Shown in pieces: positions 19,673-39,667 of a stretch of DNA of 61,769 nt. The DNA comes from Bacillota bacterium. GTDB taxonomy: Bacteria > Bacillota > Dehalobacteriia > UBA4068. Made by a program: the position numbers and the translations under genes. The first letter of the stretch is position 1. Each line of letters begins with the position of its first letter. The stretch is from the NCBI GenBank assembly GCA_024679955.1, contig JAILCQ010000024.1, positions 1-61,769 of the forward strand, in the 5' to 3' direction. The notes beneath the pieces are model-generated. The model was not told the DNA's origin. It did no database searches and saw only the letters and a list, made by a program, of their open reading frames with translations.

Positions 19673-19873
19673 TCATTCGCCGCGATGTTCCTTCCTTTCC
19701 TTGCCCAGCTTGATTTTGGTACAAGCCACGATCTCCCCCAGCACCGAGGCGCACCAACCGCCCACCAGCACGGCGGGCTCACTGCCGGTATGCCAATAAA
19801 CAAGCAGTACGGCGGCGGTAAAACCGACAAACAAAACCGACATCACGGTCAAAGCGATATCCAACGCCTTCAT
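19673..19873 (-). CDS. Small membrane protein of the lysis cassette
   Basis: The protein has 66 residues with two predicted membrane segments (about 6-27 and 33-50) and a charged C-terminal tail ending KLGKERKEHRGE. The start codon overlaps the stop of the upstream holin gene (ATGA). Size, topology and position between a holin and the endolysin suggest a second holin or antiholin, but no family is recognised. Confidence 0.6.
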   Translation of the reverse strand: MKALDIALTVMSVLFVGFTAAVLLVYWHTGSEPAVLVGGWCASVLGEIVACTKIKLGKERKEHRGE

Positions 19874-20193: not shown

Positions 20194-20206
20194 ATACGCT
20201 GCCTCC

Positions 20207-20422
20207 TTATTCATCCACCCTGGGATGAAGCGCTTCCAATTCTTTGATGCGGGCCTCGTTCCGTTTGGCCCGTTCCTCTATCTTGTACATACGCTCTACC
20301 AGGTTGTTATGCTTGTCCACTTTCTTTTCCAGCTCCTGAATACGCCACATCACCGCGCCCCAGGTGGCGGCCAGACCCAACAGATACAGCACGATATCGC
20401 CGGAAAATGTCAATCCGTTCAC
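20207..20422 (-). CDS. XhlA/holin-accessory-like small membrane protein
   Basis: About 71 residues, with one membrane helix (LYLLGLAATWGAVMW) followed by a charged coiled coil (ELEKKVDKHNNLVERMYKIEERAK). This is the haemolysin XhlA-like layout seen ahead of holins in Bacillota prophages. The start is uncertain: a GTG at 20422 lies 13 bases after AAGGAGG, and in-frame ATGs at 20449 and 20455 lack a ribosome site. It is the first gene of a three-protein membrane cassette before the endolysin. Confidence 0.65.
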   Translation of the reverse strand: MNGLTFSGDIVLYLLGLAATWGAVMWRIQELEKKVDKHNNLVERMYKIEERAKRNEARIKELEALHPRVDE

Positions 20423-20498
20423 GGGTTGTCCGCCGCCTCCTTCCGCCATACGCATAAAACAAGCGTCCGCGCCGGCCAAAACAGTTTTGGGACGGCTA

Positions 20499-21302: not shown

Positions 21303-21319
21303 GTTTTTTCCTCCTTTTT

Positions 21320-22276: not shown

Positions 22277-22671
22277 TCCGTCACCTCATCCCATCCGTAA
22301 ACGCCCGGTTCCCATACGTTATTGTCTGCCGTGCTTATCCAGACCTTATTGTTGTGCCGCACTTTATCGCCTGTCATATAAGGATTGGTGCTTTCCGGCT
22401 GCACCCAATCGGGAATAATCTCCGGGGTCGGTATAAGCACTTCGGCAAAAAGGGAAGGGCTTACGCCGGGAGACCAGGAAACTTGCGATACATGATCCGT
22501 CAGTGCACGCCACAACTTGCCGTCATAATATAGTCTGTCCCCCGTTGTATATTCCTCGCCGGGCCGCCACCGAGGATATAACATCGGCACTTGCAGCGCG
22601 TCTGTGTCGGATAAGTTCTTTGCGCCCTCTACCATCTGCGCCCGGTATAACTTGGCCTCATGTCGTTTCAT
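22273..22671 (-). CDS. Tail-associated protein with two chitin-binding (CBM5/12-like) modules
   Basis: The protein has 132 residues. Two short aromatic modules occur, one around WRPGEEYTTGDRLYYDGKLW (about 35-55) and one around YMTGDKVRHNNKVW (about 97-110). Both are of the type found in chitinases and in phage tail proteins. The modules suggest glycan binding on the host wall. The ATG at 22671 follows GGGAGG, and start and stop overlap both neighbours. Confidence 0.75.
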   Translation of the reverse strand: MKRHEAKLYRAQMVEGAKNLSDTDALQVPMLYPRWRPGEEYTTGDRLYYDGKLWRALTDHVSQVSWSPGVSPSLFAEVLIPTPEIIPDWVQPESTNPYMTGDKVRHNNKVWISTADNNVWEPGVYGWDEVTE

Positions 22672-22880
22672 ACTTCACCTCCCATCAATATCTGCAAGGA
22701 TTCCTCCGCGTCTATATCTTCGTCAGGGATAAGCTGATCCGTTTCCTCATAGGTAAAAACGCAGGGGATAACATCCACCGCGTCAGAGTAAAGTTTGTCT
22801 GTTTCCACCTGCCGCAGCATATAACCAGCGTCCGAATAATGTCTTACGCACATCTCGCTAACCTGTTCTTCCAGTATCAT
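22668..22880 (-). CDS. Small acidic phage protein, unknown
   Basis: This 70-residue, acidic protein has no recognised domain. It is encoded between the putative fibre and the CBM protein with a four-base overlap to the latter and an AGGAGG site. It could be an assembly chaperone for the fibre, as small acidic genes after fibres often are; this is positional inference only. Confidence 0.6.
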   Translation of the reverse strand: MILEEQVSEMCVRHYSDAGYMLRQVETDKLYSDAVDVIPCVFTYEETDQLIPDEDIDAEESLQILMGGEV

Positions 22881-22891
22881 ACGCTCACCTC

Positions 22892-23481
22892 CTATACATA
22901 CGGATTGCCGCCGGACACGGGATAATCCATCAGGTAGACCTCTACGGTAAATGTGCCGTTGATGGTTCCACTTGCTGATGAGTTATATCTGGTATTAATA
23001 TCTATCACGCCGGACGGAGAAATTGTGTCCGCGTATACACCGTACCCTATGCCTGTACCAGCAGGGTAAGTGTAATACTCTCCACCACTTCGTAAACTAT
23101 GAACGAACCGCGCGCCGTAAGACAAGGTGTTAGAAGTTAAGCCACTTGCAGGAAGTCTGTTGTAGAAATAACAATCAGACCCGTGGCAGTATCCCTCCCT
23201 TGCCCCCGCAGTATCGCGGATTTTCACATAAACTATTTTGTCGGAAGTAAAAGCGGAAGCACCGCAATTAATACTGCCAATAGTAGTTGCGTGGACGAGG
23301 TGTTAACAGTATATGTCGCCGTTGCCAATAGCGTAGGGGCAGGCGCTACATAAGTACCCGTGACAGGCTCGCCGTCCGCGCCGTGGGCAGTGTAATCATC
23401 AAGCAGTTTATCGGCGGCAACGGTATCCCCGGTCAAGTCCATTTGCGTTACGCCGTCGAAAACCAGTTTGGAAATCGCCAT
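22892..23481 (-). pseudogene. Tail fibre-type gene interrupted by a frameshift near 23290
   Basis: Two open frames make one protein if a single base is restored. The first starts at 23481 with [18 protein letters not shown] (an appendage-start motif) and goes out of frame after NTSST, ending at 23233. The downstream frame continues sensibly as TTIGSINCGASAFTSDKIVYVKIRDTAG and ends at 22892 (HSLRSGGEYYTYPAG, VEVYLMDYPVSGG). The break lies close to 23287-23293. The intact product would have about 196 residues. It could be a real mutation or an assembly error. Confidence 0.75.
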
Positions 23482-24427
23482 GTTTTACCCCCCCATACTG
23501 CTATCCATTTATACGTCTTGCCGGCTAAGAATGCGCTATTGGAGTTTGCGGGAACATGGGGATAAAATTCCTCATTGTTGGCCCAATATTTCGGATGATT
23601 GGTCGTCGTATCATTTGAACTATCTGAAGTTACCGAGAATTGATATTGACCAGTATTGTGAGAATTTGTTCCCGTTCTGGTAACACAATATACGAATCCA
23701 TACCACAAGTTGGTACTGGCAAAGGGGAAACCATAACCCGTCACTTTATAAGCGTCATAATACATCCAAAATTCATTGTCATATTGGGTATATCCGCCCG
23801 CTGTCGCGGCTTCTGTAATCGCTATAAACAGCGGTGCTTCCGTATGCGCATTGGTGAAACTGATCGTAGGTTTATATGTGTCCGCACTCGGCGTATATGT
23901 GCCCTCCTCATAAACTAAACCGCCAGATCCAGATACATTAACCGTAACCGGACCATAAGCATGACCAGCAGCAGGCGTATATGTTCCATTGGCCGTGGCA
24001 GTCAACGCTTCAATGACCGTTGCTGCTGGGTTTGTGGTGATCGCCCGTATGGTGCCGCCTGCCGCGTCCTGGGTGTCCGTAATCGTTACCGTACCGCCGC
24101 TGCTGCCGGTGCCGCCGCCAACGGTAAGAGGGTTGCCGATGATGGGCAGAATCTGCACAGCATTGGCTTCGAACCAGTCAATGGCGGTCTGGCTGGTGGC
24201 ATCGGTTCCGCCGGTTATTTCTATTGTGCGGTAAGATTCGTTTATCCAACCGCTTACCATGGTATAAACATACACATAATCATCATTCCCATAGGCAAAA
24301 GCATTAGAATCCACATCCGTATACTGATAGGAATGATTATTGTTTATGAAATTGATATCAAAGACAGCGCCACTTAAAGTGATTGCCTCATTGAAACGCC
24401 AGGTTGTACCGGTCAAATTTGCCACGC

Positions 24428-24431
<4 letters not shown>
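23448..24431 (-). CDS. Phage tail fibre/receptor-binding-type protein
   Basis: This 327-residue, Thr/Asn/Tyr-rich beta protein has no recognised catalytic domain. An N-terminal segment starts [13 protein letters not shown], a linker contains [14 protein letters not shown], and [21 protein letters not shown] is a motif common in phage appendages. It overlaps the collagen-like fibre gene by ATGA. Near the 3' end a run of seven G precedes a TAA in another frame. One extra G would end the protein just before the next gene, so the last 12 or so residues are doubtful. Confidence 0.65.
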
Positions 24432-26005
<1,574 letters not shown>

Positions 26006-26015
26006 GTCACGCCTC

Positions 26016-26639
26016 CTATCCTGCCACCAAATATACATACGTCCCCGGCAGAAGATATTTGCTGCCCAAGTCTATGGCTACTTCGCCCTCGTCAAAGCTC
26101 ACCGCGGAGGAAGAAAGGGAACTGGGCCGGAACTCCCAGTTGCTGTTAATCAAAATCCCCATCCGCCGGTAACTGGGCCCATAGATCAGACAGGCCGCAG
26201 CGTCGTACAACTCATTTTCACCGATGCTTTGGATCACCGCAGCAAAATACCTCGGCGTAAAATTACCGAAGCCGGTCAGCGTATAGCTGGCGGCGGCGCT
26301 GGATACTTGAAAAGTGCCTATCGCCACATCCCCGGAAAAAGCCCCTTCCACACCAAAGATTGACACACCGTCTTTGATATTGCCCGGCAATAAATTCGGT
26401 TCCGCCGGTATGGTCTGCGCCCCGTCCAGATATTGCCCGGCGGAAATCGTGCCGCCAAGCCGGGTAATGTTGATCTGCGCGGCAGCTTTGGACGGTATCG
26501 TCCCGGTGATAATTTCCGTGGGGTCGTTGGGGTTGATAATCTGTTTGCCGTTCAATATATCTGCCGCCGTGGCCGGATTGGTGAGCGCCGGAAGGTCGCC
26601 ACCGCCCCCGCCAAAGCAGCCTTTTATCATGCCTACCAT
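26016..26639 (-). CDS. Phage tail appendage protein
   Basis: This 207-residue protein begins [14 protein letters not shown], then [30 protein letters not shown], a segment typical of small appendage/fibre proteins in Clostridia prophages. The rest is predicted beta ([17 protein letters not shown]). The ATG at 26639 is chosen because AAAGGAGG precedes it. It is probably a structural tip or adaptor; no enzymatic motif is seen. Confidence 0.7.
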
Positions 26640-26652
26640 GTGCAAACCTCCT

Positions 26653-27606
26653 TTAATCGAATACCCGGATAACCAGCGGAATATCCACTCCCGCTCCCGG
26701 CACCATACCAAACGCCTGAATGGTAAAACTGCCGGAAGCCTGGGATATGATCTTGGGCTTTGCCGCCTGCCATGCCGCCTGTTGGGCCTCCGTAGCGGTA
26801 TAGGCCGTATCCACGTCAAAATTGTTGTTTGCCGTGATATAGGCGGAATTGATAATCAAAACGCCGTCATCCCAGCCAGAAGCATAGGCCGTCAGCGTTA
26901 CCGTCCGTATCGTCGGCACAGCCGCCGCGATAGCCGCAAAAATATCCGTCGCCTGATTGGTGGGGTCGTAAACAGACGCCTGCATACCGCCGGGCGCTCC
27001 GTCGTCGCCCTTCGGCCCGCGCACGCTGCCCAGGTCGTAGATCGCCGTGTCGCTTAGGTCGGTTTCTTCGCTTACGGTGTATATCAGGTGTCCGCTGTTG
27101 TCTATGGACAAAGGCGGCGGTGCGGAACCGTCGGGGATACATATCTTCAAATGTCCGTCCTCCGGGTCTACAAACATTTTATACATATGATTCATCACAG
27201 AAAGAGCGTCAACGCCGTTGAAATCGCCATTATCCAGTTTTTGCTGCATGGTATCGCCGTCCGCTCCCAAGATCAAAAGCTCCGTTTCCTGCCCCGCCCC
27301 ATAGATCAATGCCCTGCGCCAGGCATCCCGCTGCGCTGCTGTAGCGGTATTTTTAATAGAAAGCATCACTTTGCTCTCTTTCGGAGCGCCCTGAATACCG
27401 GCTACGCTGACCGAGGCTTGCTTCGTGCTGGCATTCCAGTCGGAATCGTAAACGTCAAAAAAAACCGTTTTCACCCGCAGCCCATCCGCATAAGAAAAAA
27501 TATCTCTTGCTTTGCCGTTGGGATCGTACACATTTTGCAGCATATCGCCGTTTCCCGCCGGCCCTTGCGGCCCCCGCACCGATCCCAAATCAAATTCCTG
27601 TACCAA
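26653..27606 (-). CDS. Phage baseplate/fibre protein with short collagen-like linkers
   Basis: This protein of about 317 residues, from a TTG at 27606 behind CGGAGG, contains DLGSVRGPQG and DLGSVRGPKGDDGAPG linkers. A module ending PPPLSIDNSGHLIYTV is shared with the next upstream protein, and a C-terminal beta region follows (TIRTVTLTAYASGW). Repeated modules point to domain duplication within the fibre cluster. It is probably a tail appendage. Confidence 0.7.
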   Translation of the reverse strand: MVQEFDLGSVRGPQGPAGNGDMLQNVYDPNGKARDIFSYADGLRVKTVFFDVYDSDWNASTKQASVSVAGIQGAPKESKVMLSIKNTATAAQRDAWRRALIYGAGQETELLILGADGDTMQQKLDNGDFNGVDALSVMNHMYKMFVDPEDGHLKICIPDGSAPPPLSIDNSGHLIYTVSEETDLSDTAIYDLGSVRGPKGDDGAPGGMQASVYDPTNQATDIFAAIAAAVPTIRTVTLTAYASGWDDGVLIINSAYITANNNFDVDTAYTATEAQQAAWQAAKPKIISQASGSFTIQAFGMVPGAGVDIPLVIRVFD

Positions 27607-27620
27607 AGCCTGCACCTCCG

Positions 27621-28046
27621 TTAATCAATGGTGTAAATCAAATGACCGCGGCTGTCTATGGACAGTGGAGGCGGCCCGGCGTCATCCGCCACGCCCACAT
27701 ACAAATGCCCGTTGGCCGCATCCACGCGGAAATAATACATCCGGTCAAAAAAGCACTGCCCGTCCTGTCCTTTCAACACATTTTGATCCAACTTATCCTG
27801 AAAGCTCTCCCCGTCGCTGAACAGGATCTGACCGGCGTTACCGGCTTGGTTGGCTACCACTGTCTGATCGTCGATCTGCTCGATCCAATGCTTCAATGCG
27901 TTCAAAGCGCTTTCCATATCCCCGGAAGGCAATCCTTCCACGTCCACGCTGTTCAAAACGCCGGCCAAAGCCTCAAAGTTGGCCATCAAATGCGCGGCGT
28001 ATGCCTTTTGCCCGTCCTGAAAACGGTAGGGTAAACGTACGCTCAT
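27621..28046 (-). CDS. Phage tail appendage protein sharing a module with its neighbour
   Basis: This 141-residue protein starts SVRLPYRFQDGQKAYAAHLMANFEAL, typical of small phage structural proteins that attach fibres. Its C-terminus (FFDRMYYFRVDAANGHLY then PPPLSIDSRGHLIYTID) matches the middle of the protein encoded immediately downstream. It follows the nozzle gene by 16 bases. Function is inferred from position and the shared module. Confidence 0.7.
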   Translation of the reverse strand: MSVRLPYRFQDGQKAYAAHLMANFEALAGVLNSVDVEGLPSGDMESALNALKHWIEQIDDQTVVANQAGNAGQILFSDGESFQDKLDQNVLKGQDGQCFFDRMYYFRVDAANGHLYVGVADDAGPPPLSIDSRGHLIYTID

Positions 28047-28062: not shown

Positions 28063-29631
28063 TTATTCCCAATCTGTGACTTCGGTTTGTTCCACGCCCA
28101 CGCGGCTGCCTTTGGGACGCTTTTTCTTATATACCACCGCCACGCCGTAAATCATCACCGGCTGATCCAAATGCTCCGCCTGATCGGCAATAAAAGATAC
28201 CTGCAAACGCTTGGCCTTTTGGTTGACGGTCACTTCTTTGGTCACCGTATCCTGCCAGCCGAAAAACGTCTCGCCGAATCCGCCTTCCCCATATACCAGG
28301 CTTTCGTCCATATCGGTGTTGAACAGCCATTGCTGATTCCGATAATCCGCCTTGATCCGCAGCTTGATCTTGCTGCTCTGCGCTGCGTATTGTTTGGCGG
28401 CGATCAACACCTTTTTGATGCGGCTGTCCCGCACCATGCCGCCCATTACGTCGAAGCTCTTGGTCACCGCCTTCATCGGTATCGTTTTCGGCTCGCCCAC
28501 GGAAACGTCGATATAATGGTGACTGGCATTGTCATATTTCAGCACATATCCGTTGCCGCATCCCAAAAACAACGCGTTTTCTCTCATCGCCGTCGAATAA
28601 CAAGTGGCCTCTTGGGTAAATTCGCCCCAAAAGCTTTTCAGGGCGGTATAATACCGGTATTCCTTTTTCCCCTGCCCGTTGACCACCGTCAAATAATAGA
28701 CGCTGTCCCACACCTGGGCATAGGCGTCCACCGTTCCGTTGCTGCGCAGCGTATCGCTGATCAAACCGATGGAAATATTTTTTGCCGCAATGGCGGTAGA
28801 ATAAAACGGCCAGCTCAGCTCGTATACGCCGTTATACCCCAAAAACAAAACTGCGTTTTCTACCGTTTGAATGCTTTTATCAAATTTTGTGCCCGAGGTA
28901 ACGTTCAACTGCGTCAGATCCATATCGCTGCCGCCGGCAAAATCCCAACCGCTCAAAAAATGCACGGTCTTTTCTTTGAATATCAGCATCCCTTGAGAGA
29001 ATTCTTTCAATCCGGTAATACAATCGGCATTTTTTGTGTTCACATTGATCACATTCGTTTCGGTAAAGGCGCAGGGATTGCCAATCTCCGATACATATAC
29101 TTCGCTTTTGTCCGCCCTGGCATAAAACCAACGCTTGCCCCGCTGCTCCACGAAGCTGGATCCTTTGATCCGCTGCCACAAAGCCTGCAAGGCGGAGGAC
29201 GGATCCACCGCGTCCAAAACCGCTTCGCTGGTGGAAGACCCGTTATAAACGCGTATCGTCGTACCGTCCAGCCAATACAGCTTATCGGCGTAGACAAAAT
29301 AGTCCCGGATCGGCGCGGTCATCGCCGGCGTCACCGTGATCTCCTGCCATTCTCCGCCCAGCGCGTCATACCGGTACAAATGCTCTTTGGTAAAACACAG
29401 GCTTTGACAAGGGCCGCTGGCCGGCTGATAATCCAAAACCGCCTGCACGTCTCCGCAATCGGGAAGCTGCGCTGCAAACGCCAGATCGGTGCCGCAGGCC
29501 CGTTTCAAACCGTATTTTTCACCAGGCTCCGTATTCACCGCCGACACCAATTGATTGTCTTTCATATTATCATTGGCGTTTTCGCATAAACCGCCGGAAA
29601 AATCCTGATACACCCGCAAATATTTAGCCAT
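28063..29631 (-). CDS. Tail nozzle/hub beta-propeller protein (P22 gp10/T7 gp12-like)
   Basis: The 522-residue protein opens YQDFSGGLCENANDN and continues as a run of beta-propeller-like blades (LYWLDGTTIRVYNG, FFARADKSEVYVSEIGNP-like, GLKEFSQGMLIFKE, VWDSVYYLTVVNG). This is the pattern of podovirus tail nozzle or phage-stabilisation proteins that close the portal after packaging. The ATG at 29631 follows GGAG, and the gene overlaps the small gene before it by eight bases. Assignment is by fold pattern and gene order. Confidence 0.7.
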   Translation of the reverse strand: MAKYLRVYQDFSGGLCENANDNMKDNQLVSAVNTEPGEKYGLKRACGTDLAFAAQLPDCGDVQAVLDYQPASGPCQSLCFTKEHLYRYDALGGEWQEITVTPAMTAPIRDYFVYADKLYWLDGTTIRVYNGSSTSEAVLDAVDPSSALQALWQRIKGSSFVEQRGKRWFYARADKSEVYVSEIGNPCAFTETNVINVNTKNADCITGLKEFSQGMLIFKEKTVHFLSGWDFAGGSDMDLTQLNVTSGTKFDKSIQTVENAVLFLGYNGVYELSWPFYSTAIAAKNISIGLISDTLRSNGTVDAYAQVWDSVYYLTVVNGQGKKEYRYYTALKSFWGEFTQEATCYSTAMRENALFLGCGNGYVLKYDNASHHYIDVSVGEPKTIPMKAVTKSFDVMGGMVRDSRIKKVLIAAKQYAAQSSKIKLRIKADYRNQQWLFNTDMDESLVYGEGGFGETFFGWQDTVTKEVTVNQKAKRLQVSFIADQAEHLDQPVMIYGVAVVYKKKRPKGSRVGVEQTEVTDWE

Positions 29632-29983
29632 TGGCTTTGCTCCTGCCGCTTCGTTTTTTCTGTTCCGCGCCGCCGTTTTCGCGCTGGGCCGCCAGATCCG
29701 TCCCCGCCTGCCGCTGCCAGACTTCCGCATCCACTTCCGGATCGCCGGAGCCGGCCTGAGCCTTTTTGCTTCGGGCCGGACGGGCGTTTTTCGCCGCCTG
29801 CGCCAATTGACGCAGGCTCGGCGCTTCGATCACCATGCCGCCGGCATTCACCCCGTCTTTGAGGATAGCGGCGATCAGCTCCGCGTCTTTTTCCTCGTCA
29901 AATTCCTTGCCGCCTCTGTCCAATATCACTGCGCCATTGGTCCAACTTTCCCCCCGGGAAAGAAATCTGCGCATTTTCGCCAT
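29624..29983 (-). CDS. Small basic phage protein after the capsid gene, unknown
   Basis: This 119-residue protein has a folded-looking N-terminal half (SWTNGAVILDRGGKEFDEEKDAELIAAIL) and a low-complexity, Ala/Arg/Lys/Gln-rich tail. The position between capsid and nozzle genes would suit a head-completion or decoration protein. No family is recognised. The ATG follows AAGGAGG. Confidence 0.6.
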   Translation of the reverse strand: MAKMRRFLSRGESWTNGAVILDRGGKEFDEEKDAELIAAILKDGVNAGGMVIEAPSLRQLAQAAKNARPARSKKAQAGSGDPEVDAEVWQRQAGTDLAAQRENGGAEQKKRSGRSKANG

Positions 29984-30118: not shown

Positions 30119-31291
30119 TTACGCGTCCAAAACTTCGTAACAACCGGTGATCAGCATATGGGCTTTCGGTTGTTTGAATTCAACGGAGCATTCGGTAATA
30201 TACTCATCCATCACGCCGTCCACGTCTCTGGCCTGGATATTGGTATTCAGCTTGGTGTCCCGTCCGTCCAAATAGACATAACGGATATACTGCAGATCCA
30301 AAACGAAGCCATAGCCGGCATATACGGCGCTTTCCATCAGCAAAGGATCGTAAACCACTTTCATATTGCCATAGCTGGTAATCAGATTGCGTACCGTCAT
30401 ACCCATGGTTTTGTCTTCGCCCACTTCCGTCACCAGCTTCTGAGAAGCCCAGTCGTTGATGGCCGAAGCCAAATACGGACCGGCCACCAGCAGCTTTTCT
30501 TCGCTGCCGTAGCTGAAAGCTTCCCTGGCCACCTTGGCGTCGAAGTTGCGGAAGGTCAGCTTATTGCTGCTGGCGTTAAAAGCCACCGCCCGGGAATCGT
30601 TGGCCAGGAATTCCAAAATACCGCCCATGGAGCGGCGGGGAGTAGCGCCGCTGGTATCCAGCTTCCTCTGGCCGAAATACAAAGCGTTGGCAATATCCCG
30701 GATATGTTCGATGCCCGCCTTTTTTCGTTGATAATTCAGGTCTTTGCCGCCATACATTTTGGAGGCCTTTTCCGTATTGGAAAGAGCGATGGGCGTACGG
30801 AATATCTGCGTATAATTGTAGCAGGGGGTCTCCTGGGTGGATTTCACCTCTCTGGCCCCGGCGTTTTCCGCCTGGGCGTTGCCGATGATCAAGATCTCCG
30901 CGTCGTCCGCCACCGCGGCCCCTACGGTAGAACCGTACCCTCTGGATACGGTCAAAGTATTCCCGGAAACGGCGGTCACCAGCATGCATTCGCCGGTGGA
31001 CGGCACTTTGAGCAGATCATATACCCGAAAGATACCGCCGTCCTCCACGGTAATCGTGGACGCGTCGGCGGCAGCCGCTCCGTTGGCCAGGGTGCGTACG
31101 CCCAGCAACTGATCCTCCAACCACTCAAACTTCGGATTATAAACCACGCGGCTGTCTCCGCGGATCGCCTTCAAACAGGTCAAAAACGGCGCTTTATCCG
31201 GCTCCAATAAAGCGATTTGATCCGCCATATCCACCACAAGCCGGTTGGCTGCGATATTCCCCGTAGTACGAACTCCCGTAATCAATGCCAT
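30119..31291 (-). CDS. Major capsid protein, SU10 type
   Basis: This is a 390-residue HK97-fold capsid protein of the SU10 (DUF5309) family. It has the N-terminus TTGNIAANRLVVDMADQIALLEPDKAPFL, the N4/SU10 segment RTPIALSNTEKASKMYGG, LRR-type SMGGILEFL and the late VRNLITSYGNMKVVYDPLL. This family is found in podoviruses and many Clostridia prophages. The ATG follows AAAGGATG, after the scaffold gene. No truncation is seen. Confidence 0.88.
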   Translation of the reverse strand: MALITGVRTTGNIAANRLVVDMADQIALLEPDKAPFLTCLKAIRGDSRVVYNPKFEWLEDQLLGVRTLANGAAAADASTITVEDGGIFRVYDLLKVPSTGECMLVTAVSGNTLTVSRGYGSTVGAAVADDAEILIIGNAQAENAGAREVKSTQETPCYNYTQIFRTPIALSNTEKASKMYGGKDLNYQRKKAGIEHIRDIANALYFGQRKLDTSGATPRRSMGGILEFLANDSRAVAFNASSNKLTFRNFDAKVAREAFSYGSEEKLLVAGPYLASAINDWASQKLVTEVGEDKTMGMTVRNLITSYGNMKVVYDPLLMESAVYAGYGFVLDLQYIRYVYLDGRDTKLNTNIQARDVDGVMDEYITECSVEFKQPKAHMLITGCYEVLDA

Positions 31292-31363: not shown

Positions 31364-32173
31364 TTAATCAAAAAAACGCCCCTTACCGGCGCTGAATATA
31401 CCCTTGATGATCTTTTCTTCCTCGCTGGGATCGCTTTGACTGCCTTTGTTGTTTTTGGGATAGATGGCCAGCCCCGCCTTATCCGCACCGGCAAAGAGAG
31501 CCTCCGGCTCCGCCGGCAGATCCGCTGCGGCGGCGCTGCCGTCCCCGCCTTGGGTTTGCGGGGCGCCATACAGATCCAAAGCGGCCAGCTTCATCATTTC
31601 TTCCGGATGCTTGCGCCAAATATCGCCGTCGCCCCACTGGCGGCTGCGCTCGATCATGCCCTGCATCAGCCGTTTGGCTTCCGCCGCATCCGCCGTCTGC
31701 GGAAACATGGCCTGCACCAAACGTAGCGCCCGGTCGAAGCTGCTCCGTTCCTGATTCTGCCGCATAGCCTGCAGCAGCGGTTCCAGGGATTCCTGCACCT
31801 TGCGGCTTACGCCGCCTTTCTGTCTGCTTTCCTGTCCGCCGCGGTCTTCCCGGACAGGCTTTTCCTCCGCCGTGCCGGAAGCGCCTTGCCCCCGCTCCGC
31901 CAACAGTTGCCGCACCGTCTGCTCCAACGCCTGACGGGCCTGCCTTTCCTGCAGCAGGCAGCGGTATATATCCGGCAAACGTCCCTGCATATCCTCATAC
32001 TGGGCCTGCAATCTCTGCCATCTTGCTCCGTCTCCCTCCTTTCCCCGATCGCCGCCGTCGCTTTCCATACCGCGCGGATCCGCGTTTTCCCCGGCAGCCG
32101 CCATCTGGGCAGCCGCCAGCAAAGCTTCATCCGACAGATCCAGCCGCTCTTTTTTTCCGTTAAAAAAACCCAT
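31364..32173 (-). CDS. Putative phage scaffolding protein
   Basis: The protein has 269 residues, is Gln/Glu/Ala/Arg-rich and mostly helical, with a strong coiled-coil region (LQAQYEDMQGRLPDIYRCLLQERQARQALEQTVRQLL). The C-terminus holds a conserved-looking DIWRKHPEEMMKLAALDLYG segment and a basic end. It lies directly upstream of the capsid gene, the usual scaffold position. Identity is inferred from composition and synteny; no protease domain is seen. Confidence 0.65.
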   Translation of the reverse strand: MGFFNGKKERLDLSDEALLAAAQMAAAGENADPRGMESDGGDRGKEGDGARWQRLQAQYEDMQGRLPDIYRCLLQERQARQALEQTVRQLLAERGQGASGTAEEKPVREDRGGQESRQKGGVSRKVQESLEPLLQAMRQNQERSSFDRALRLVQAMFPQTADAAEAKRLMQGMIERSRQWGDGDIWRKHPEEMMKLAALDLYGAPQTQGGDGSAAAADLPAEPEALFAGADKAGLAIYPKNNKGSQSDPSEEEKIIKGIFSAGKGRFFD

Positions 32174-32294
32174 TGCAACAACCTCCTTCTTTATTCCGCA
32201 TTAAAAAACCGCCCTTCGGCGGATAATGCCACGCTTTATAAAATGTTTCCGGCAAACAAACCGGCCGTTTTATCTTTTTTCCTTGCGGGAAATA

Positions 32295-32303
32295 TGCTAT
32301 AAT
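32295..32303 (+). promoter_or_regulatory. Extended -10 promoter of the comEA-like gene
   Basis: TGC-TATAAT at 32295-32303 on the plus strand, opposite to the phage operon, with a T-rich -35 position. It lies 83 bases before the ATG at 32386. Confidence 0.6.
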
Positions 32304-32385
32304 CAATTCCAAATATGGCGTCCAGCCAAAACTGGATCACCAAATGCCGAACCACCCACCACCCTGCCGGAAAGGACAAGACCCC

Positions 32386-32778
32386 ATGCCGTCCAGATCC
32401 AAATATATTACGCCGTTTCTATTATCCGTGCTGATCGTCGCCGTCATTCTGACGGTGTGCGGCTACCGCAGCGCCCGCATCCTTCCCCCAACCTCCGCCG
32501 CCGTCGTCCGGGAGCTTTCCCCGGAAGCGACGGAAAAGGCGGCTGACGCCGCTGCCGCGGCAGACGCGGCCGCCGGCGCTTTTCAGCCCATCGATCTCAA
32601 CGCCGCCACCGCCAGCCACTTGCAAACCCTTCCCGGCATCGGCCCGGTAAAAGCCGCCGCCATCATCGCCTATCGGGAAGAAATCGGCGGCTTCACCGAC
32701 AAAGCCCAATTGCTTAACGTTTCCGGTATCGGCCAAAAGACCTACGACGCCATTCGGGATCTGGTTTACATTGAATGA
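32386..32778 (+). CDS. comEA: ComEA-like helix-hairpin-helix DNA-binding protein inside the phage operon
   Basis: This 130-residue protein has an N-terminal transmembrane anchor (about 7-28), an Ala-rich linker and two helix-hairpin-helix motifs. They are seen as DLNAATASHLQTLPGIGPVKAAAIIAYRE (about 68-96) and LLNVSGIGQKTYDAI (about 108-122). This is the ComEA layout: a membrane-tethered receptor that binds incoming double-stranded DNA during natural transformation. The SLBB domain of long ComEA proteins is missing. It is the only rightward gene within the structural operon, has its own promoter, and no comEC is in the window. The ATG follows GGAAAGG. Confidence 0.85.
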   Translation: MPSRSKYITPFLLSVLIVAVILTVCGYRSARILPPTSAAVVRELSPEATEKAADAAAAADAAAGAFQPIDLNAATASHLQTLPGIGPVKAAAIIAYREEIGGFTDKAQLLNVSGIGQKTYDAIRDLVYIE

Positions 32779-32856
32779 CTGGCAATATGTGAATTTGCCT
32801 TGATTTTTCCGCCGCCTGGAGGATTTCTTCTTTTGCTTCGGACTTTTCCGCTATTT

Positions 32857-32878
32857 TTCTATATTAATTAATATAGAA
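32857..32878. repeat. 22-bp perfect AT-rich palindrome after comEA
   Basis: Uninterrupted dyad with half TTCTATATTAA and its complement, no loop. It lies 79 bases after the comEA stop and 22 before the stop of the converging phage gene. Without a GC stem it is a poor terminator; a protein-binding or recombination site is possible. Confidence 0.7.
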
Positions 32879-32899: not shown

Positions 32900-33127
32900 C
32901 TATTCCGCCCCGTCCGTCCATTCCCGGATCAGCCCCAAAAACGCGCCGGTTTCCGCGAAAGCGCCTTGCCAGCGGCATACCTCCTCCCAGTTTTTGGCCT
33001 CGCTGAACCGTCCCAGGATATACCGGCGTTTTTCTTCTATTTCCCGGCAAAACCACAGCCAAAAGGCATTGTCCGCCAGGGCCGCCGCCGCTTCCTGCAA
33101 ACGTCTGATCTCCTCCTGCTCCATCAT
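32900..33127 (-). CDS. Small phage protein downstream of portal
   Basis: The protein has 75 residues, is helical, and rich in Trp and Glu (FWLWFCREIEEKRRYILGRF). Its start overlaps the portal stop by four bases. It is unrecognised. Small genes after the portal often encode head proteins; nothing in the sequence decides. Confidence 0.55.
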   Translation of the reverse strand: MMEQEEIRRLQEAAAALADNAFWLWFCREIEEKRRYILGRFSEAKNWEEVCRWQGAFAETGAFLGLIREWTDGAE

Positions 33128-34983
33128 GCGCCGCCTCCCGCCAGTATCCTGGACAGTGCTTCCGCCAAAGCTTGCTCCGGCTCCGCCCCGGCTTCCGCCG
33201 TCGCCCCTTGCCGCAAGGCCGCCGCCGGGTCCAAACCGGCCGCTGCACCGCCGCCGTTACCGGCTGCTTGTCCAAACGGGGGAGCCGCCAAAACCGCCGC
33301 CAAAGAATGTACGCTATCATCATCCCCGGCCGGCCTTGGGCCGGCTTTTTTTTGTTCTTCCCCGGCGGTTTTTCGCAGATCCGGCAAAAGCTCCTTCACA
33401 TTCTCTATATCCAAAGCGCGAAACACTCTTTCCAAAAAACGCAGCAGCGCCTCCGGATCGTTTTGATACAAAGGATGACGGCTGGCCAATTGGAATGCCT
33501 CCATGGTACGGTTTTTGATCATTTCTTTGTTGGCCAAAGGCTCCGCCGCCGCCCCGACATAATACAGATCATAATCTCCCGCCAATTCTTCCGGCGAAAT
33601 ATGCAGCAGCCTATCCCCGTCTTCGTTCAGCAAACGGATCAAGCGCTTCTCCGTCAAAAACTGCTGATCCAAAGCCAAACATTTCTTGCCCACCGGCGTC
33701 AGCAGATTGTTCACCACCGCCGCCACCACGCTTTTAAAACGCAGCGAAGCGTTGTTGTCCTTGGTCATGGTGGTGGTGGCGGTTTCCGACCGCTGGGACA
33801 AACCCATGATCACATCGTGACACCCGGTGGTATCCCGCATATCCTGCTTGATACTGCTCTCATTGGAAAAGGCCGTGCCTGGCATGGTCGCCACCTGAAT
33901 CTCCTGCACGTCGTCCATATTCTCCACCTGCAAAACCCCGTTTTGCCGCCACACCAGATCCCGGGGGGTGATGCCGCAGCCCTTACGCACCTTCCACATG
34001 CGCCGCAAGGCCAAAGAATAATAATCCACCCGCTGGTTCCGGGTGGTGTTCAATTCTTTCTGCAGGCTTTCGATGGATTCCGGGATGCCGACGCCGTAAA
34101 ATTCATGGGGCAGCGGCGTATAACAGCACTTATCATACGGCTTCATGCCATGCCAAAACGGATTGGGCTCGTCCAGGGCGCATTGGCATTCGTTGACGAT
34201 CACCACATGGCGGTCGTCCTCCCAATACTGATCCACCTTATAGAGGCTGTTGTCGTCCTGGCCGCTGAAATCATCCTCGCTTTCGCTTTTGCCGGCGTCG
34301 TCCCGGCGCATCGTTTGCCCCTTTTCCACGTCTTCCCAGGGGCTCAGCTTGCTGAAATCCAAGCGGTACTTGCCGTTTCTCACCATATTCTGCAATTGCC
34401 GCCGGGTCTGATACTCCCGATGACCGCAAAAACGGGCGTCGCGGATGTCTTCCGCATTGGGATCCACAAAAAAATCAAAAATATCCAGACATTGACAGAT
34501 GGGATCGTCATATACCACAGTATTGTGCCTGATCTCCTGCCGGGCCCCGCCGGCCCGCTGCCGGGTCTGCCTGGTTTCCAGCAGCCATCCCGTATACACC
34601 ACGGCCGTGCCGTAGCAGCATAAGCTATGCAATACCTTATCCCGAAACAGCCTGGGCAATTGCATCCTGTCGTTCATTTGCCAATCCAATAATGTCTGCA
34701 GCCGGTCCGCCTGTGCCTTGTCTTCGTCCCCCCGGGGCAATATGGATAAATAGGGCCTGCTGGCAAACAGGCTCTCCGCCACTCTGGCTTTGATCACCTC
34801 CACCTGCATAAAGGTGGCCGGCACAAAAATATTGCTCCTGCCTTCCTTCACTTCATCCGGTTGAGAACGGTACAAACGGTAATACCGCCGCCAATCCTGA
34901 CTGTAGTTCTCATCCCGCCATTGTTCCGCCCGTTTGATCCGGTCTACGATCACCGGCACTTGTTTGCTCTCATTCGCCTTCAT
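33124..34983 (-). CDS. Phage portal protein
   Basis: The 619-residue protein contains typical portal features. The N-terminal helix has RAEQWRDENYSQDWRRYYRLYRSQPDE, a wing includes FDFFVDPNAEDIRDARFCGHREY, and the stem-crown region has LQKELNTTRNQRVDYYSLALRRMW and the ISPEELAGDYDLYYVG stretch. The size and motif order fit podovirus/SU10-like portals. It forms the dodecameric DNA channel bound by the terminase. The C-terminal 60 residues are low complexity (Ala/Gly). Its stop overlaps the next small gene. Confidence 0.87.
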   Translation of the reverse strand: MKANESKQVPVIVDRIKRAEQWRDENYSQDWRRYYRLYRSQPDEVKEGRSNIFVPATFMQVEVIKARVAESLFASRPYLSILPRGDEDKAQADRLQTLLDWQMNDRMQLPRLFRDKVLHSLCCYGTAVVYTGWLLETRQTRQRAGGARQEIRHNTVVYDDPICQCLDIFDFFVDPNAEDIRDARFCGHREYQTRRQLQNMVRNGKYRLDFSKLSPWEDVEKGQTMRRDDAGKSESEDDFSGQDDNSLYKVDQYWEDDRHVVIVNECQCALDEPNPFWHGMKPYDKCCYTPLPHEFYGVGIPESIESLQKELNTTRNQRVDYYSLALRRMWKVRKGCGITPRDLVWRQNGVLQVENMDDVQEIQVATMPGTAFSNESSIKQDMRDTTGCHDVIMGLSQRSETATTTMTKDNNASLRFKSVVAAVVNNLLTPVGKKCLALDQQFLTEKRLIRLLNEDGDRLLHISPEELAGDYDLYYVGAAAEPLANKEMIKNRTMEAFQLASRHPLYQNDPEALLRFLERVFRALDIENVKELLPDLRKTAGEEQKKAGPRPAGDDDSVHSLAAVLAAPPFGQAAGNGGGAAAGLDPAAALRQGATAEAGAEPEQALAEALSRILAGGGA

Positions 34984-34992
34984 ATTCTCCCC

Positions 34993-35508
34993 CTACTCCA
35001 CGATCCATCGCTCCAATTGCCGCTGCCAGCCGCCGCAGGTTTTTAAACGCTTGGCTTTCGCGTCGTTATAGAGTTTCATCCATTTGCTGCCATGGCCGCT
35101 TTCTTCCCCGTCGCCCTCGGATTCCCGATCCCAAAAACGGGAGGTGGCAAAAATGGGCAACAACCCGTGCCAGATCTCCGCCAATTCACATTCTCCCTGA
35201 TAGGCATCGGAAAAATCCTTGGGCAATCGGTAATAATACAGCCGGGCCTGCCCCGGAGAAGCAAAAACGATTTTGCCGTCCGGCGTCAATGTATAGGCGC
35301 GATCGCAATCCGCAAGCTGCAAAAAGCCTTCCGGCAAAGCAAAGGCCTCCCCAGCCCCGGCCACCGTATAGTCAGCCGTGGCCATCATGCCGCCGGCCAG
35401 GGCCAAATCCGTCTGTGCCTCGTTGAACCACACATACAAGTCGCCGTTATGACAATCATTTACGCCGCTTAAAACGGCAAATTGATCCTTCAATTGCTCA
35501 AAATTCAT
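34993..35508 (-). CDS. Phage head-tail adaptor-type protein
   Basis: This 171-residue protein has an N-terminal helical part (FEQLKDQFAVLSGVNDCHNGDLYVWFNEAQTDLAL), a beta section and a C-terminal helix ending RQLERWIVE. This resembles small adaptor proteins between portal and tail in podo-like phages. The ATG at 35508 has GAGGGG upstream. Function is inferred from the gene's place between terminase and portal. Confidence 0.6.
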   Translation of the reverse strand: MNFEQLKDQFAVLSGVNDCHNGDLYVWFNEAQTDLALAGGMMATADYTVAGAGEAFALPEGFLQLADCDRAYTLTPDGKIVFASPGQARLYYYRLPKDFSDAYQGECELAEIWHGLLPIFATSRFWDRESEGDGEESGHGSKWMKLYNDAKAKRLKTCGGWQRQLERWIVE

Positions 35509-35537
35509 ATCCGCCCCTCTTTCCTCAACGTTTTCGT

Positions 35538-37190
35538 TCAATAGCCGGTGATCGGGTCTACCGCGCCGTACCATTGTCCTTCCTCAAACTCTTCCCGTTC
35601 ATAATAGGGCTGCTCCGTCAAAACATACAACGCCAAGGCCAAAGCCATCACCCGATCGTCATGGCTGCCCTCCCGGGCATTGGCCGCGCCTTTTTCATCG
35701 TACATGTACGTTAAACATTCGTTGATCGTTTCTTTGCCATGTATCTTCTCCGCCTCCCGGCGGATATGACCGGCCAGGGCGCTGATCAGTAACGGCTTGG
35801 TGCGGGCGCTGGTAAAAAAGCCGTATTCCTGCATGGTATAATCGCTGGAACGGTTCACCGTCCGCCGCCGGTAAATGCGGGGATAAGCCAAGCGCTTCAA
35901 CGCGTTCACCGTGGCCACCCCATGATTGTTCACCTCCGGCGTCACTCTGGCCAAATTATAATAGCGTCCCAAATAGGCCGCCTGTACGCCCAACAGATCC
36001 GGATCGATATGCCCGTGCCATTCCGCCGCCTGCTCGCCGCTGTCCCGGATCACCACCTCCATCGCCGCATAATCTCCTCCCTCCTTTCCCGAAGCCGTAT
36101 CCACACCGATCACATATTCCCGGCCTTCCTCCGGCAAACGCCACAACCGCAAATTGCCCTGAGGCGAATCCACAAAGGTCACCCTGCCGTCCACTTCTTC
36201 CAAATCTCCCCGGCGCAGCGGTTTCTCCGCTCCATGCAAGGCCCGGACCAAAGCCGGAACGTCAAAGACCGGCCTGCCGCTGGCAATAAAGGCCTCTCCG
36301 GCAAAGGCCGGATACTCCTGATGAAAAACCTGTATATCCCCGCCGCAATTGGCGTCGATACACCAACGCCGCCAAGCCAACTGTTCCGCGGTCAATCCGT
36401 ACAAACGCTGCAATTCCTTTTCTGCCGCCAGGGGCGCAAAATTCTCCGGCGGCGGCATGCGGTATTCCGGATTCTCAAACCAGGGGAAAAACAACGGTGT
36501 AAAGCCGCCTTCCCCTTAGGTCGCCCGCTGCCATTGCTCAAAAAAGGCGCCGCCCAGGCCGTTGGCCGTGCTTTCAATGATCACCATCGTCTGCCGGTGA
36601 TACGGCACCGCCTGCAATAAAGAAGTCATGGTCTCCGCCGCATACGGCCAAAAAGCCAATTCGGATATATGCAGATTGTGAATGGTGGCAGAACGTCCCG
36701 CTTCTTTGTTCAACGCCGTTTCAATGGTGATCCTCGAACGCAGGCCCGGTCTTTGACTCCGCTCTTTGGCCCGGGGATTCTCAAAAATCAGCTCCCGGGA
36801 ATTGGCGGCCTTGCGCAGGGGACGCAAAAAAGCCGGGGACTCTTCATAGAACAGCTTGGTCTTGTTGAAAATATTGGCGGATGCGTCCGCCTTATGGGCC
36901 ACCACCATGGAATGCACATTGGGCCTGGTCACCGTGGCATGATAAAACAAACCGGCCACGGCTGTGGAAAACCCCATTTGCCGCGCTTTCAAAATGATGA
37001 TCCGTACCGGCTGCCCCGCCTGCCGCTGCCTCTGTATTTCCGCATACAGTCTCTTTTGCGCGTCGTTAAAGACAAACGGCGCCAATTCGCCGTATTTGTT
37101 CTGTATTTTCAGCGTTTTTGCGCAAAATAAAAGCGGATCGTTGATTATCCGCTTGATATCTTCCGTATTGTTTTTATTCTCTTTGCCCAT
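35538..37190 (-). pseudogene. terL: Large terminase subunit with an in-frame TAA
   Basis: One reading frame carries both terminase domains. The ATPase part (37190-36519, 224 codons) has IIILKARQMGFST (Walker A variant), MVVAHKADASANIF and IIESTANGLGGAFFEQWQRAT. A TAA at 36516-36518 stops it. The same frame continues as GEGGFTPLFFPWFENPEY, and then the nuclease domain with GVDTASGKEGGDYAAM and SHDDRVMALALAL. The stop replaces one residue, so a single substitution restores a 550-residue protein. It may be a nonsense mutation, stop readthrough or a separately started nuclease subunit (a TTG at 36494 with a distant GGGGAAGG). Confidence 0.85.
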
Positions 37191-37195
37191 CAATC

Positions 37196-37612
37196 TTACT
37201 CCGGATCGCCCAGGAATTCTTCAATTGATACTGATTTTTCCTCTTCACCGTCCTTTTCGCCATATCCGTACACCGCCTTGGCGGCAAAAGCGCCGATAGA
37301 GCCTTTTTTATCGCGGCAGGCAAATTCTATCGTCAATTGTTCGGCCAAATCCTGCCACTTCAACAGCAAACGCCGCCTTTTCTTCTGCCAGGCCGCTTCC
37401 TTTCCCGTGGGTTCCCGCAGCCATTCCCGATACGTGGCTTCGTCGATCTGCAAAGCCACCCGTATATCCACCTTCAACATCACCGTCGCCGTTTGCTGGC
37501 GCCGCAAATACTCCGCGGCCAATCGCCGCTCGATCTCCTCCAATTGCTTGCGCGGCGGTAATTCCGCCACGCTGCCGTTTAACCAAGGGCGGTACGCCGC
37601 CGTTTCCTCCAT
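37196..37612 (-). CDS. terS: Putative small terminase subunit
   Basis: This 138-residue, helical, highly charged protein has an HTH-like middle (MLKVDIRVALQIDEATYREWLREP, about 45-70) and an acidic C-terminus. It lies three bases upstream of the large terminase gene. Size, composition and synteny fit TerS, which recognises the packaging site. No clear database motif is visible by eye. Confidence 0.7.
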   Translation of the reverse strand: MEETAAYRPWLNGSVAELPPRKQLEEIERRLAAEYLRRQQTATVMLKVDIRVALQIDEATYREWLREPTGKEAAWQKKRRRLLLKWQDLAEQLTIEFACRDKKGSIGAFAAKAVYGYGEKDGEEEKSVSIEEFLGDPE

Positions 37613-37791: not shown

Positions 37792-38202
37792 CTATATCCA
37801 TCCCAATTCCAGCGCCAAACGGCTTAATAACTCCTGATTCCAGCGCAGCAAGGTGCGGTCGGAATATCCCAATACCGCCGCTGCGCCATATAAAGTATGG
37901 CTGCTGTTTAAGTAGACCATTCTGATCATGGCCAATTTATCCGCGTCCTTTTCCTGCTGATAAGCGGCCAAAACTCTTTCCACCGCCGCCACTTCCTTGC
38001 CCATTTGTTCCAGCCGCCCCTGACTCAGGCGGACCGCTTTGCCATAACAGGGATCGCTGACGCCGCTTCTGCGGCAAACGGTATCCAAGGCATAATTTTG
38101 TCCCAAAATCACATCCCCCCGCAGCTGCTGCAGCAATTGGCGGTTGGCGCGATAGTTCAGCAAAATATCTTTCGCATGTCCCCGCCATTTCAGATATTTC
38201 AT
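37792..38202 (-). CDS. ArpU/RinA-like late transcription regulator
   Basis: The protein has 136 residues and is mainly helical. The C-terminal half (VERVLAAYQQEKDADKLAMIRMVYLNSSHTLYGAAAVLGYSDRTLLRW) looks like a sigma-70 region 4-type HTH. This organisation is that of ArpU/RinA phage regulators, which turn on the packaging and late genes that follow. The start overlaps the zinc-ribbon gene by ATGA. About 180 bases separate it from terS; no terminator is obvious there. Confidence 0.75.
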   Translation of the reverse strand: MKYLKWRGHAKDILLNYRANRQLLQQLRGDVILGQNYALDTVCRRSGVSDPCYGKAVRLSQGRLEQMGKEVAAVERVLAAYQQEKDADKLAMIRMVYLNSSHTLYGAAAVLGYSDRTLLRWNQELLSRLALELGWI

Positions 38203-38498
38203 ATTTGGATCATCTCCCGTATGTATCGCCGTTCCTCCCGGCTAAACTCCTTATCCGCCAGTTCCGCCAATTGCCGCAGAATCATACCGCCGCAATCCGG
38301 GCAAATCCCTTCCGTCAATTGTTCCTCCGGCCACCTCTCGCCGCATACCGGACAATCCGCCACCTTAAACCAGGCCCCGCCGCAAAACGGACAAGCCCAA
38401 TATATCTCGGGCAAAGGATTTTCGCCGGTGGGCCCCCGATTCTCCCGATACCGTTTCAAACGTCTGAACACCCTGCCACAATCCTCGCATTGAAACAT
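38199..38498 (-). CDS. Phage zinc-ribbon protein
   Basis: The 99-residue protein has four zinc knuckles, CEDC, CPFC, CPVC and CPDC, giving two rubredoxin-like ribbons, and a helical C-terminus (FSREERRYIREMIQI). It is probably DNA binding or a structural co-regulator of the ArpU-like gene with which it overlaps. The ATG at 38498 follows AGGAGG. Two operator copies lie 26-70 bases upstream of its start. Confidence 0.7.
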   Translation of the reverse strand: MFQCEDCGRVFRRLKRYRENRGPTGENPLPEIYWACPFCGGAWFKVADCPVCGERWPEEQLTEGICPDCGGMILRQLAELADKEFSREERRYIREMIQI

Positions 38499-38523
38499 AA
38501 AACCTCCTGTATACACTCGTTTG

Positions 38524-38538
38524 TTGCTTATTACGCAA
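38524..38538. promoter_or_regulatory. Phage operator copy A
   Basis: TTGCTTATTACGCAA; fits TYGC-N7-GCAA shared by four sites in this region. It lies 30 bp from copy C (centre to centre). Confidence 0.65.
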
Positions 38539-38553
38539 TATATTTATTTCTTG

Positions 38554-38568
38554 TCGCTCATAGCGCAA
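38554..38568. promoter_or_regulatory. Phage operator copy C
   Basis: TCGCTCATAGCGCAA, just downstream of the Cro-like gene stop; same consensus. Confidence 0.65.
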
Positions 38569-38569
38569 C

Positions 38570-38764
38570 TTACTGTCCAAAAAAAATTTTTGCTGGATCT
38601 TTGATATGCAGCAAATCGATCATTTTTTCCATTTCGTCGGAGCCAAAAATCCCTTTGTTGATTTTACTGTTGAAGGTACGCAAGGAGATACCCAAATGTT
38701 TCGCTACGTCCGCCTGTGTCAAACCGTTGTTTTTAATAATGTTTTTTAATTCTTTGATGTTCAT
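38570..38764 (-). CDS. Cro/Xre-like phage repressor
   Basis: This 64-residue single HTH protein (KNIIKNNGLTQADVAKHLGISLRTFNSKINKGIFG) is the first leftward gene and divergent from the S24-type repressor. It is the natural Cro counterpart. The ATG at 38764 is behind GGAGGG; upstream in-frame starts lack one. It is transcribed from the strong leftward promoter at 38831-38859, which carries operator copy D downstream of its -10. Confidence 0.8.
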   Translation of the reverse strand: MNIKELKNIIKNNGLTQADVAKHLGISLRTFNSKINKGIFGSDEMEKMIDLLHIKDPAKIFFGQ

Positions 38765-38813
38765 CTTTTTCCCTCCGTTTGTAGTTTGTTTGCAATTGGT
38801 TTTCGACTGTTTG

Positions 38814-38828
38814 TCGCTTGTCATGCAA
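38814..38828. promoter_or_regulatory. Phage operator copy D
   Basis: TCGCTTGTCATGCAA, immediately downstream of the leftward -10 box, where a bound repressor would block the Cro-like gene and the late operon. Confidence 0.65.
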
Positions 38829-38830
38829 CT

Positions 38831-38859
38831 AATATACAGATAAAATTGGCGTTTGTCAA
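38831..38859 (-). promoter_or_regulatory. Leftward early promoter
   Basis: On the minus strand TTGACA (38859-38854), 17-base spacer, TATATT (38836-38831). A consensus -35 makes it a strong promoter. Confidence 0.8.
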
Positions 38860-38894
38860 TATAAAAATTGGGAATAGCAGGAGAAATTTAATGG

Positions 38895-38923
38895 TTGCAT
38901 ATTCCGCAACTTTACCCTATAAT
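38895..38923 (+). promoter_or_regulatory. Repressor maintenance promoter with overlapping operator copy B
   Basis: TTGCAT at 38895-38900, 17-base spacer, TATAAT at 38918-38923. Operator copy B (TTGCATATTCCGCAA, 38895-38909) includes the -35 box, so the repressor can shut off its own gene. Confidence 0.75.
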
Positions 38924-39031: not shown

Positions 39032-39667
39032 ATGGGTATTAAAGAAAACCTGAAAATCAAACGCAAGGAATTGGATCTTACCTTGGAGGAAGCCTCCCAA
39101 AAGCTGGGCATTAAACGCTCCACTTTGCAACGCTACGAAAGCGGCGCCATCACCAATATTCCGGCCGACAATATTGTCAAATTGGCGGAAATCTATCACA
39201 CCACTCCGGCGCAGCTGATGGGCTGGGCAGATTCTTTCAACAACGAAACGGCAAACGGCAAAGAGGGAGATATGCCTTCCCTCCATCGTTTCGCCCTGCC
39301 GATATTGGGCGAACCTGCCTCTGACGGTTCACGAATGTGCGAACCTTTATTTGAAGGATATGTAGAAATGGGTTCAGCCATCCGCGCCGATTTTTGCCTG
39401 CGGGCCAAGGGGGACGGCATGATCAACGCCCGTATCCAAAACGGGGATATCGTTTTTATCCGCCGGCAGGACGATGTGGAGGACGGAGAAGTGGCCGCTG
39501 TATTGATCGAGGATAAACCCACCCTGAAACGGGTATACAAACATGGCGATTGGATTCAGCTGCAAGCGGACAATCCCAATGTGCGGCCGATCCTATACCG
39601 GGCCGGCGAAACGCCCAATATCCGCATCATCGGCAAGGCGATCGCTTTTCAAAGCAATGTAGAATAG
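39032..39667 (+). CDS. Phage CI/LexA-type repressor lacking the catalytic serine
   Basis: The 211-residue protein has an Xre HTH (about 1-62, LTLEEASQKLGIKRSTLQRYESG) and a C-terminal S24 peptidase-type domain (about 95-205). The family's GDSM motif reads GDGM here (Gly129, codon GGC at 39416-39418), while the lysine of the dyad is kept in TLKRVY (Lys166). The usual Ala-Gly or Cys-Gly cleavage pair near residue 90 is also not evident (GEPASDG). Self-cleavage is therefore unlikely and the prophage may not respond to DNA damage. The ATG at 39032 follows AAGGCGG. It is divergent from the Cro-like gene. Confidence 0.85.
   Translation: MGIKENLKIKRKELDLTLEEASQKLGIKRSTLQRYESGAITNIPADNIVKLAEIYHTTPAQLMGWADSFNNETANGKEGDMPSLHRFALPILGEPASDGSRMCEPLFEGYVEMGSAIRADFCLRAKGDGMINARIQNGDIVFIRRQDDVEDGEVAAVLIEDKPTLKRVYKHGDWIQLQADNPNVRPILYRAGETPNIRIIGKAIAFQSNVE

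Follow-up and report, generated by a model that had tools for sequence, protein, structure and literature searches.

A comEA-like gene within a vertically inherited, phage-derived cluster in a Bacillota genus

Gene content of the locus

The window, by which we mean the whole stretch of 61,769 nucleotides analysed here, contains an SU10-like phage cluster that spans about 17.9–39.7 kb and lies between host genes, with a DeoC-like aldolase gene (17157–17858) on one side and msrA (39692) on the other. A comEA-like gene is embedded in the head genes of this cluster, antisense to the phage genes. The genes and sites recognised in the window genome (G000) are given below, with reference where useful to the sister species G001, against which the dN/dS values were obtained.

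17905–18933 (−): terminal cluster gene, common to several relatives, abutting deoC
18997–20461 (−): lysis genes encoding an M15 endolysin, an LL-H holin and an XhlA-like protein
20499–28046 (−): virion genes of fibre or collagen-like type, among them one for a glycosyltransferase (21320–22276)
28063–29730 (−): conserved tail/virion protein of this cluster type, found after the capsid gene in most relatives; dN/dS 0.053
30119–31291 (−): major capsid protein (MCP); SU10_MCP, 9.5e-56
31364–32173 (−): scaffold-like gene, judged by its place ahead of MCP; G001 and other relatives have homologues
32209–32222 (−): hairpin CCGCC-GAAG-GGCGG-TTTTTT resembling an intrinsic terminator, on the strand of the phage genes and immediately upstream of the scaffold gene
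32295–32303 (+): extended −10 promoter of comEA, TGCTATAAT, identical in G001
32386–32778 (+): comEA-like gene, with putative hydrophobic anchor, Ala-rich linker and helix-hairpin-helix (HhH) domain
32900–33127 (−): small post-portal gene, whose homologues adjoin the portal gene in the G002 and G014 clusters
33124–34983 (−): portal protein; SU10_portal, 1.5e-44
34993–35574 (−): SU10-type adaptor; Pfam SU10_adaptor, 7.7e-07
35538–37193 (−): terminase large subunit (TerL), with one in-frame TAA at about 36516–36518; intact in G001
37196–37612 (−): putative terminase small subunit, from its position upstream of TerL; kept in G001, dN/dS 0.05
37792–38202 (−): late-transcription-regulator-like protein; phrog_36, 5.1e-07
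38199–38516 (−): zinc-ribbon protein
38521–38911 (no strand assigned): four 20-bp operator-like repeats (starts 38521, 38551, 38811 and 38892) flanking the HTH gene
38570–38824 (−): small Cro-like HTH protein with Pfam HTH matches, divergent from the repressor
39032–39667 (+): S24/HTH CI-like repressor; Peptidase_S24, 7.8e-21, and HTH_3, 1.7e-13

The glycosyltransferase among the fibre genes (21320–22276) corresponds to phrog_13126, of the moron category, and 24428–26038 in the same region encodes a collagen-like virion protein with GPTG repeats.

At the HTH gene, overlapping divergent promoter-like sites (38818–38859) were found, of which TTGACA-17-TATATT is also present in G001, and all four operator-like repeats occupy orthologous places in that species. 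None of the four lies near comEA. The cluster resembles a gene transfer agent (GTA) in combining phage-derived packaging and virion genes with no recognised genes for autonomous replication or integration; it lacks the recognisable integrase and replication module of a temperate prophage, a statement that applies to the annotated cluster genes, some genes of the fibre region being without assignment. The cluster also has the repressor switch and lysis genes that a PBSX-like element would have.

The ComEA-like protein

The gene encodes a 130-aa protein from an ORF (32386–32778) lying within a longer frame (32344–32778, 144 aa). ATG 32386 is the likely true start, as judged from a kept Shine-Dalgarno stretch just 5′ of it (GGAAAGGA) and from alignment with G001; the span 32298–32878 given by the first-pass annotation does hold comEA, and its 5′ part is promoter and 5′ UTR. 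That annotation had placed a comEA-type gene inside a phage structural array, on the opposite strand, flanked by the small post-portal gene and the scaffold gene and equipped with its own extended −10 promoter. All three statements hold: the portal and MCP genes of the array match SU10_portal and SU10_MCP, the gene coordinates give the stated position, and the promoter is identical in G001. The HhH DNA-binding domain, whose fold is evident from the sequence, lies at the C-terminal end of the protein and was recognised by a Pfam profile search (HHH_3, E 4.8e-21), by TIGR00426 for the ComEA HhH region (61.1 bits against a cut-off of 53.1) and by solved ComEA structures (8dss, E 4e-14). The score for full-length ComEA (TIGR01259) is 65.9 bits, below the cut-off of 152.35, and that alignment covers the C-terminal part only.

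An N-terminal hydrophobic segment was read by eye from the ComEA sequences of both species of this genus (g1), and in the window protein a short Ala-rich linker joins this putative anchor to the HhH domain. Alignment with ComEA proteins of the family revealed that both g1 proteins lack the oligomerization domain between anchor and HhH, a segment carried by most canonical family ComEAs and absent also from G012 and from G022 and G027, two aligned relatives from another family of the same order. Because this domain is reported to be necessary for monoderm ComEA (PMC9747964), the activity of the window protein is uncertain. The reading frame is intact in the window genome, and the two g1 genes are orthologous and syntenic, with 65% amino acid identity and a dN/dS of 0.26 over the whole gene and 0.16 over the HhH domain. 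In the ComEA tree, the two g1 proteins occupy a long branch, and no donor emerges.

Promoter and immediate setting

The extended −10 element (TGCTATAAT) sits inside a block, TGCTATAATCAA, that is kept in G001, as are the Shine-Dalgarno stretch and the start codon. No convincing −35 element was found upstream of 32295–32303. The terminator-like hairpin on the phage strand has a G001 equivalent at the matching place (L038:13894–13907). Consensus matches alone are weak evidence for such sites, and it is because they are kept between species that promoter and hairpin are credible. Two further candidates were rejected: the palindrome at 32856–32877 as a comEA terminator, since it is not kept in G001, and control of comEA by the S24 repressor, since no operator-like site lies nearby.

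Conservation in a sister species

Genus g1 was sampled by no more than two genomes, each from its own species (G000 and G001); both are drafts, 95.7% and 91% complete, and the window genome is in 44 contigs. G001 possesses the same cluster in the same gene order with comEA at the same position, and shares the msrA-side flank and likewise, on another contig, the deoC-side flank. Between the two species, dS of the cluster genes ranges from 0.85 to 2.8, mostly 0.9–1.7, and overlaps that of the host flanks (0.38–1.7). The phage-gene dN/dS ratios, which like those of comEA are approximate because dS is near saturation, run from about 0.03 to 0.23, with 0.027 for MCP (94% amino acid identity), 0.048 for TerL, 0.062 for the portal protein and the highest value, 0.23, in a small gene. 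From these comparisons, overlapping dS together with low dN/dS means long common descent under purifying selection, and the same values, with the shared locus, argue against a recent prophage with cargo. The cluster, then, is a non-autonomous element, GTA-like or PBSX-like, that has been passed down vertically and contains the only comEA detected in its host.

G001 also holds a second related cluster (L050, G001:C1), with 73% capsid identity and no comEA. Upstream of its terminase lie helicase-like and VRR-NUC-like nuclease genes, named by eye and not by profile search, so that prophage-like relatives of the cluster do exist in the same host.

Related clusters and viral contigs

The capsid protein was found in 9 of the 20 family genomes, representing 6 of the 13 genera, and genus pairs group together in the MCP tree. 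Both species of genus g2 have a cluster of about 11.5 kb beside an S-layer-type gene; in one of them, G014, the opposite end of the cluster borders host genes. The g2 gene order is TerL, portal, small gene, adaptor, scaffold, MCP; in g1 the adaptor comes before the portal gene, and comEA stands in front of the scaffold gene. The clusters of G014 (L052), G002 (L053) and G007 (L051) are compact and of the same type, carry no recognised integrase and occupy host loci that differ by genus. These likely belong to a family-wide set of domesticated elements. A related capsid gene in L056 (G006:C139) has an internal TAA and shuffled neighbours and is apparently part of a decaying copy.

No comEA was found in any of the related family clusters examined or in the 27 capsid-related viral contigs, and a search of the window ComEA against viral contigs returned no ComEA. 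Conservation of the insertion, which the first-pass annotation had proposed to check in relatives, thus extends to the same locus in G001 and to no other related cluster examined. The gene does have features of a moron, as that annotation called it, namely its own promoter and its absence from the other clusters and viral contigs, yet it is a sole detected copy in an inherited element. The description as moron or simple cargo did not stand up in the sense of recent phage cargo, given that this is the only detected host comEA, that the element is old and inherited and that the related phages examined lack the gene.

Host competence genes

The canonical arrangement, found in most family members, places comEA directly upstream of comEC and holA. 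Related genera have this linkage and g1 does not: in both g1 species comEC is full length and stands by itself, flanked by a SpoIIP-like gene and a deaminase gene (L070 and L079). A profile search of G000 returned the window protein as the only ComEA match, no second comEA being found in this genome, and in G001 the sole match besides the cluster comEA is an HhH in a 742-aa Tex-like frame. A separate host comEA–comEC locus, which had been suggested as a check, was therefore not found. Nor is the window position the normal comEA locus, a reading that would have undone the first-pass proposal; it was rejected, since in other genera the canonical pair lies elsewhere.

DprA is present in both g1 genomes. 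Neither contains a match above cut-off to the secretion/pilus ATPase (PF00437) or a match to T2SSF (PF00482), an absence that is likely, not certain, because the genomes are drafts. Both families were also undetected in several other genera that keep the canonical comEA–comEC pair, and pilus loss specific to g1 was accordingly rejected. Omp85 did not turn up in any of the family members searched, a result that indicates monoderm cells and speaks against a diderm host with a periplasmic ComEA.

State of the window copy

The single in-frame TAA in TerL (36516–36518) leaves the window genome without an intact packaging gene, and G001 has one open frame. A TerL split as a conserved feature was rejected, as relatives have a single ORF. 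The window repressor reads GDGM versus GDSM in G001; the catalytic serine is thus lost, which should block self-cleavage in the window genome. Because of the TerL stop and the serine-less repressor, the window copy is probably not producing particles and may be decaying, or the two lesions are draft-genome errors. The sister copy in G001 is intact at both sites.

Proposed role and competing explanations

The best explanation, which we hold tentatively and at a little under even confidence, is a domesticated, GTA-like phage cluster that holds a relocated sole comEA for DNA receipt. Under this proposal, comEA would have left the canonical comEA–comEC operon, or given way to a short form, and come to lie in a domesticated cluster that does not replicate, passes down vertically and is retained by selection. 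This cluster is most similar to a podovirus-like GTA and would be governed by a switch of CI/S24 type. The protein, small and anchored in the membrane, would use its HhH domain to keep double-stranded DNA on the external side of that membrane and pass it to ComEC, and DprA and RecA would recombine the DNA so delivered. Quiescent (recipient) cells would express the gene, and in producing cells late phage transcription would work against it. This is expected from a promoter of its own, an orientation antisense to the phage genes and a terminator-like hairpin that follows on the phage strand; the antisense arrangement suggests the opposition by late transcription. A recipient-side role of ComEA in DNA uptake is plausible, and the gene content would accommodate a ComEA–ComEC–DprA route in which particles, in place of a pilus, supply the DNA. 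Recipients of RcGTA and BaGTA need ComEC, ComF, ComM and DprA to import particle DNA (PMC10883770, PMC6899734). What we infer is that particles form and package host DNA, that the protein serves as DNA receptor and that producing and receiving exclude each other. The link to gene transfer agents drawn by the first-pass annotation has gained from the vertical inheritance, the lack of recognised integrase and replication genes and the kept arrangement; on the side of uptake it is plausible.

The full form of this proposal, in which a GTA carries its own recipient DNA receptor, antisense comEA makes a cell either produce particles or take up DNA, and particles replace the pilus in a lineage with none detected, strikes us as rather unlikely. 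Were the proposal true, it would help to explain the retention of ComEA, ComEC and DprA without a detected pilus, and a sole comEA inside virus-particle genes may physically link the making of DNA-carrying particles with the taking in of DNA. The locus would also offer a compact setting for studying producer/recipient exclusion.

It is quite possible, if short of probable, that the relocation was neutral: a host comEA would have dropped between two transcription units of the cluster and would serve ordinary uptake with no functional tie to particles. The promoter of its own, the missing operator-like repeat near comEA, the non-canonical locus of comEC in g1, which indicates that the operon broke up anyway, and the rearranged adaptor order in g1 relative to g2 all sit well with such an event. 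It accounts less readily for an antisense place inside the head-gene array and a hairpin that have both been kept over dS near 1, and ordinary transformation would need a pilus, whose genes are undetected.

Improbable in our estimate is a PBSX-like killer particle (phibacin) in which comEA is host baggage that stabilises the locus, loss of the element entailing loss of the only comEA. The SOS-type S24 switch, the lysis genes, several fibre genes and the lack of a recognised replication module are as such an element would have them; killing is not something that sequence reveals, and the g2 clusters share their compactness with the podovirus-like FpGTA I operon. Very unlikely is a feedback sensor, in which DNA imported through ComEA would lead to RecA–ssDNA filaments that cleave the S24 repressor and so start particle production. 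Competence-driven induction of a pneumococcal C1-type prophage does require comEA (PMC12637031) and the G001 repressor retains GDSM, whereas the window repressor is without its catalytic serine and the regulatory link is putative. An ordinary prophage that picked up cargo recently, or an artefact of assembly or binning, is scarcely credible: the 44-contig draft and the separate prophage-like relative without comEA in G001 would allow for it, and assembly chimera and recent cargo are both rejected by G001, whose independent assembly has the same locus arranged in the same way and whose synonymous divergence agrees.

Relation to known systems

Known GTAs depend on host competence proteins. To our knowledge, a cluster holding a competence receptor gene would, if the proposal is true, tie particle production to DNA receipt genetically and directly for the first time. 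In the open-access literature, as far as the accessible portions of its texts go, we found no description of comEA within a virion gene cluster or in connection with GTAs or domesticated prophages. In PBSX-type defective prophages of Bacillus, genes for a non-autonomous, phage-like particle stand together with those for a repressor, packaging and lysis; the window cluster likewise has repressor, packaging and lysis genes and is non-autonomous, but is of a different phage type, and we know of no comEA in a PBSX-type cluster.

Compact podovirus-like GTAs occur in Gram-positive anaerobes, as exemplified by FpGTA I/II of Faecalibacterium, in which genes for TerS, TerL, portal, scaffold and MCP make up a small podovirus-like set of 10.5 kb with genus-wide conservation (PMC12946183). 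The window cluster resembles these in its compact podovirus-like packaging and head set, its lysis genes and its Gram-positive anaerobic setting, a likeness of layout. It differs in that FpGTA is split over two loci and has no reported competence gene, the word "competence" being absent from the text of PMC12946183. The cluster and its relatives likely form a family of podovirus-like elements that monoderm bacteria inherit vertically, with a layout near that of the newly described gut FpGTA. Like RcGTA and BaGTA of alphaproteobacteria, the window cluster is phage-derived and domesticated, passes down vertically and does not replicate autonomously; in those two systems recipients need competence proteins. 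Those elements stem from another phage lineage, and their recipient competence genes are host genes, ComEA not being named among them in the portions of the sources available.

The Bacillus and Geobacillus ComEA proteins (8dss, 8dfk) have an HhH DNA-binding domain, as the window protein does, and an N-terminal membrane anchor, to which its hydrophobic segment may correspond; the window protein is without the oligomerization domain of roughly 60 residues and is not encoded beside comEC. Streptococcus suis prophages at comEC (MN270274, MN270268) are likewise phage records containing a ComEA match; there the match is found next to comEC at the edge of the record and looks like host flank at an integration site, in contrast to the gene embedded in the head module here.
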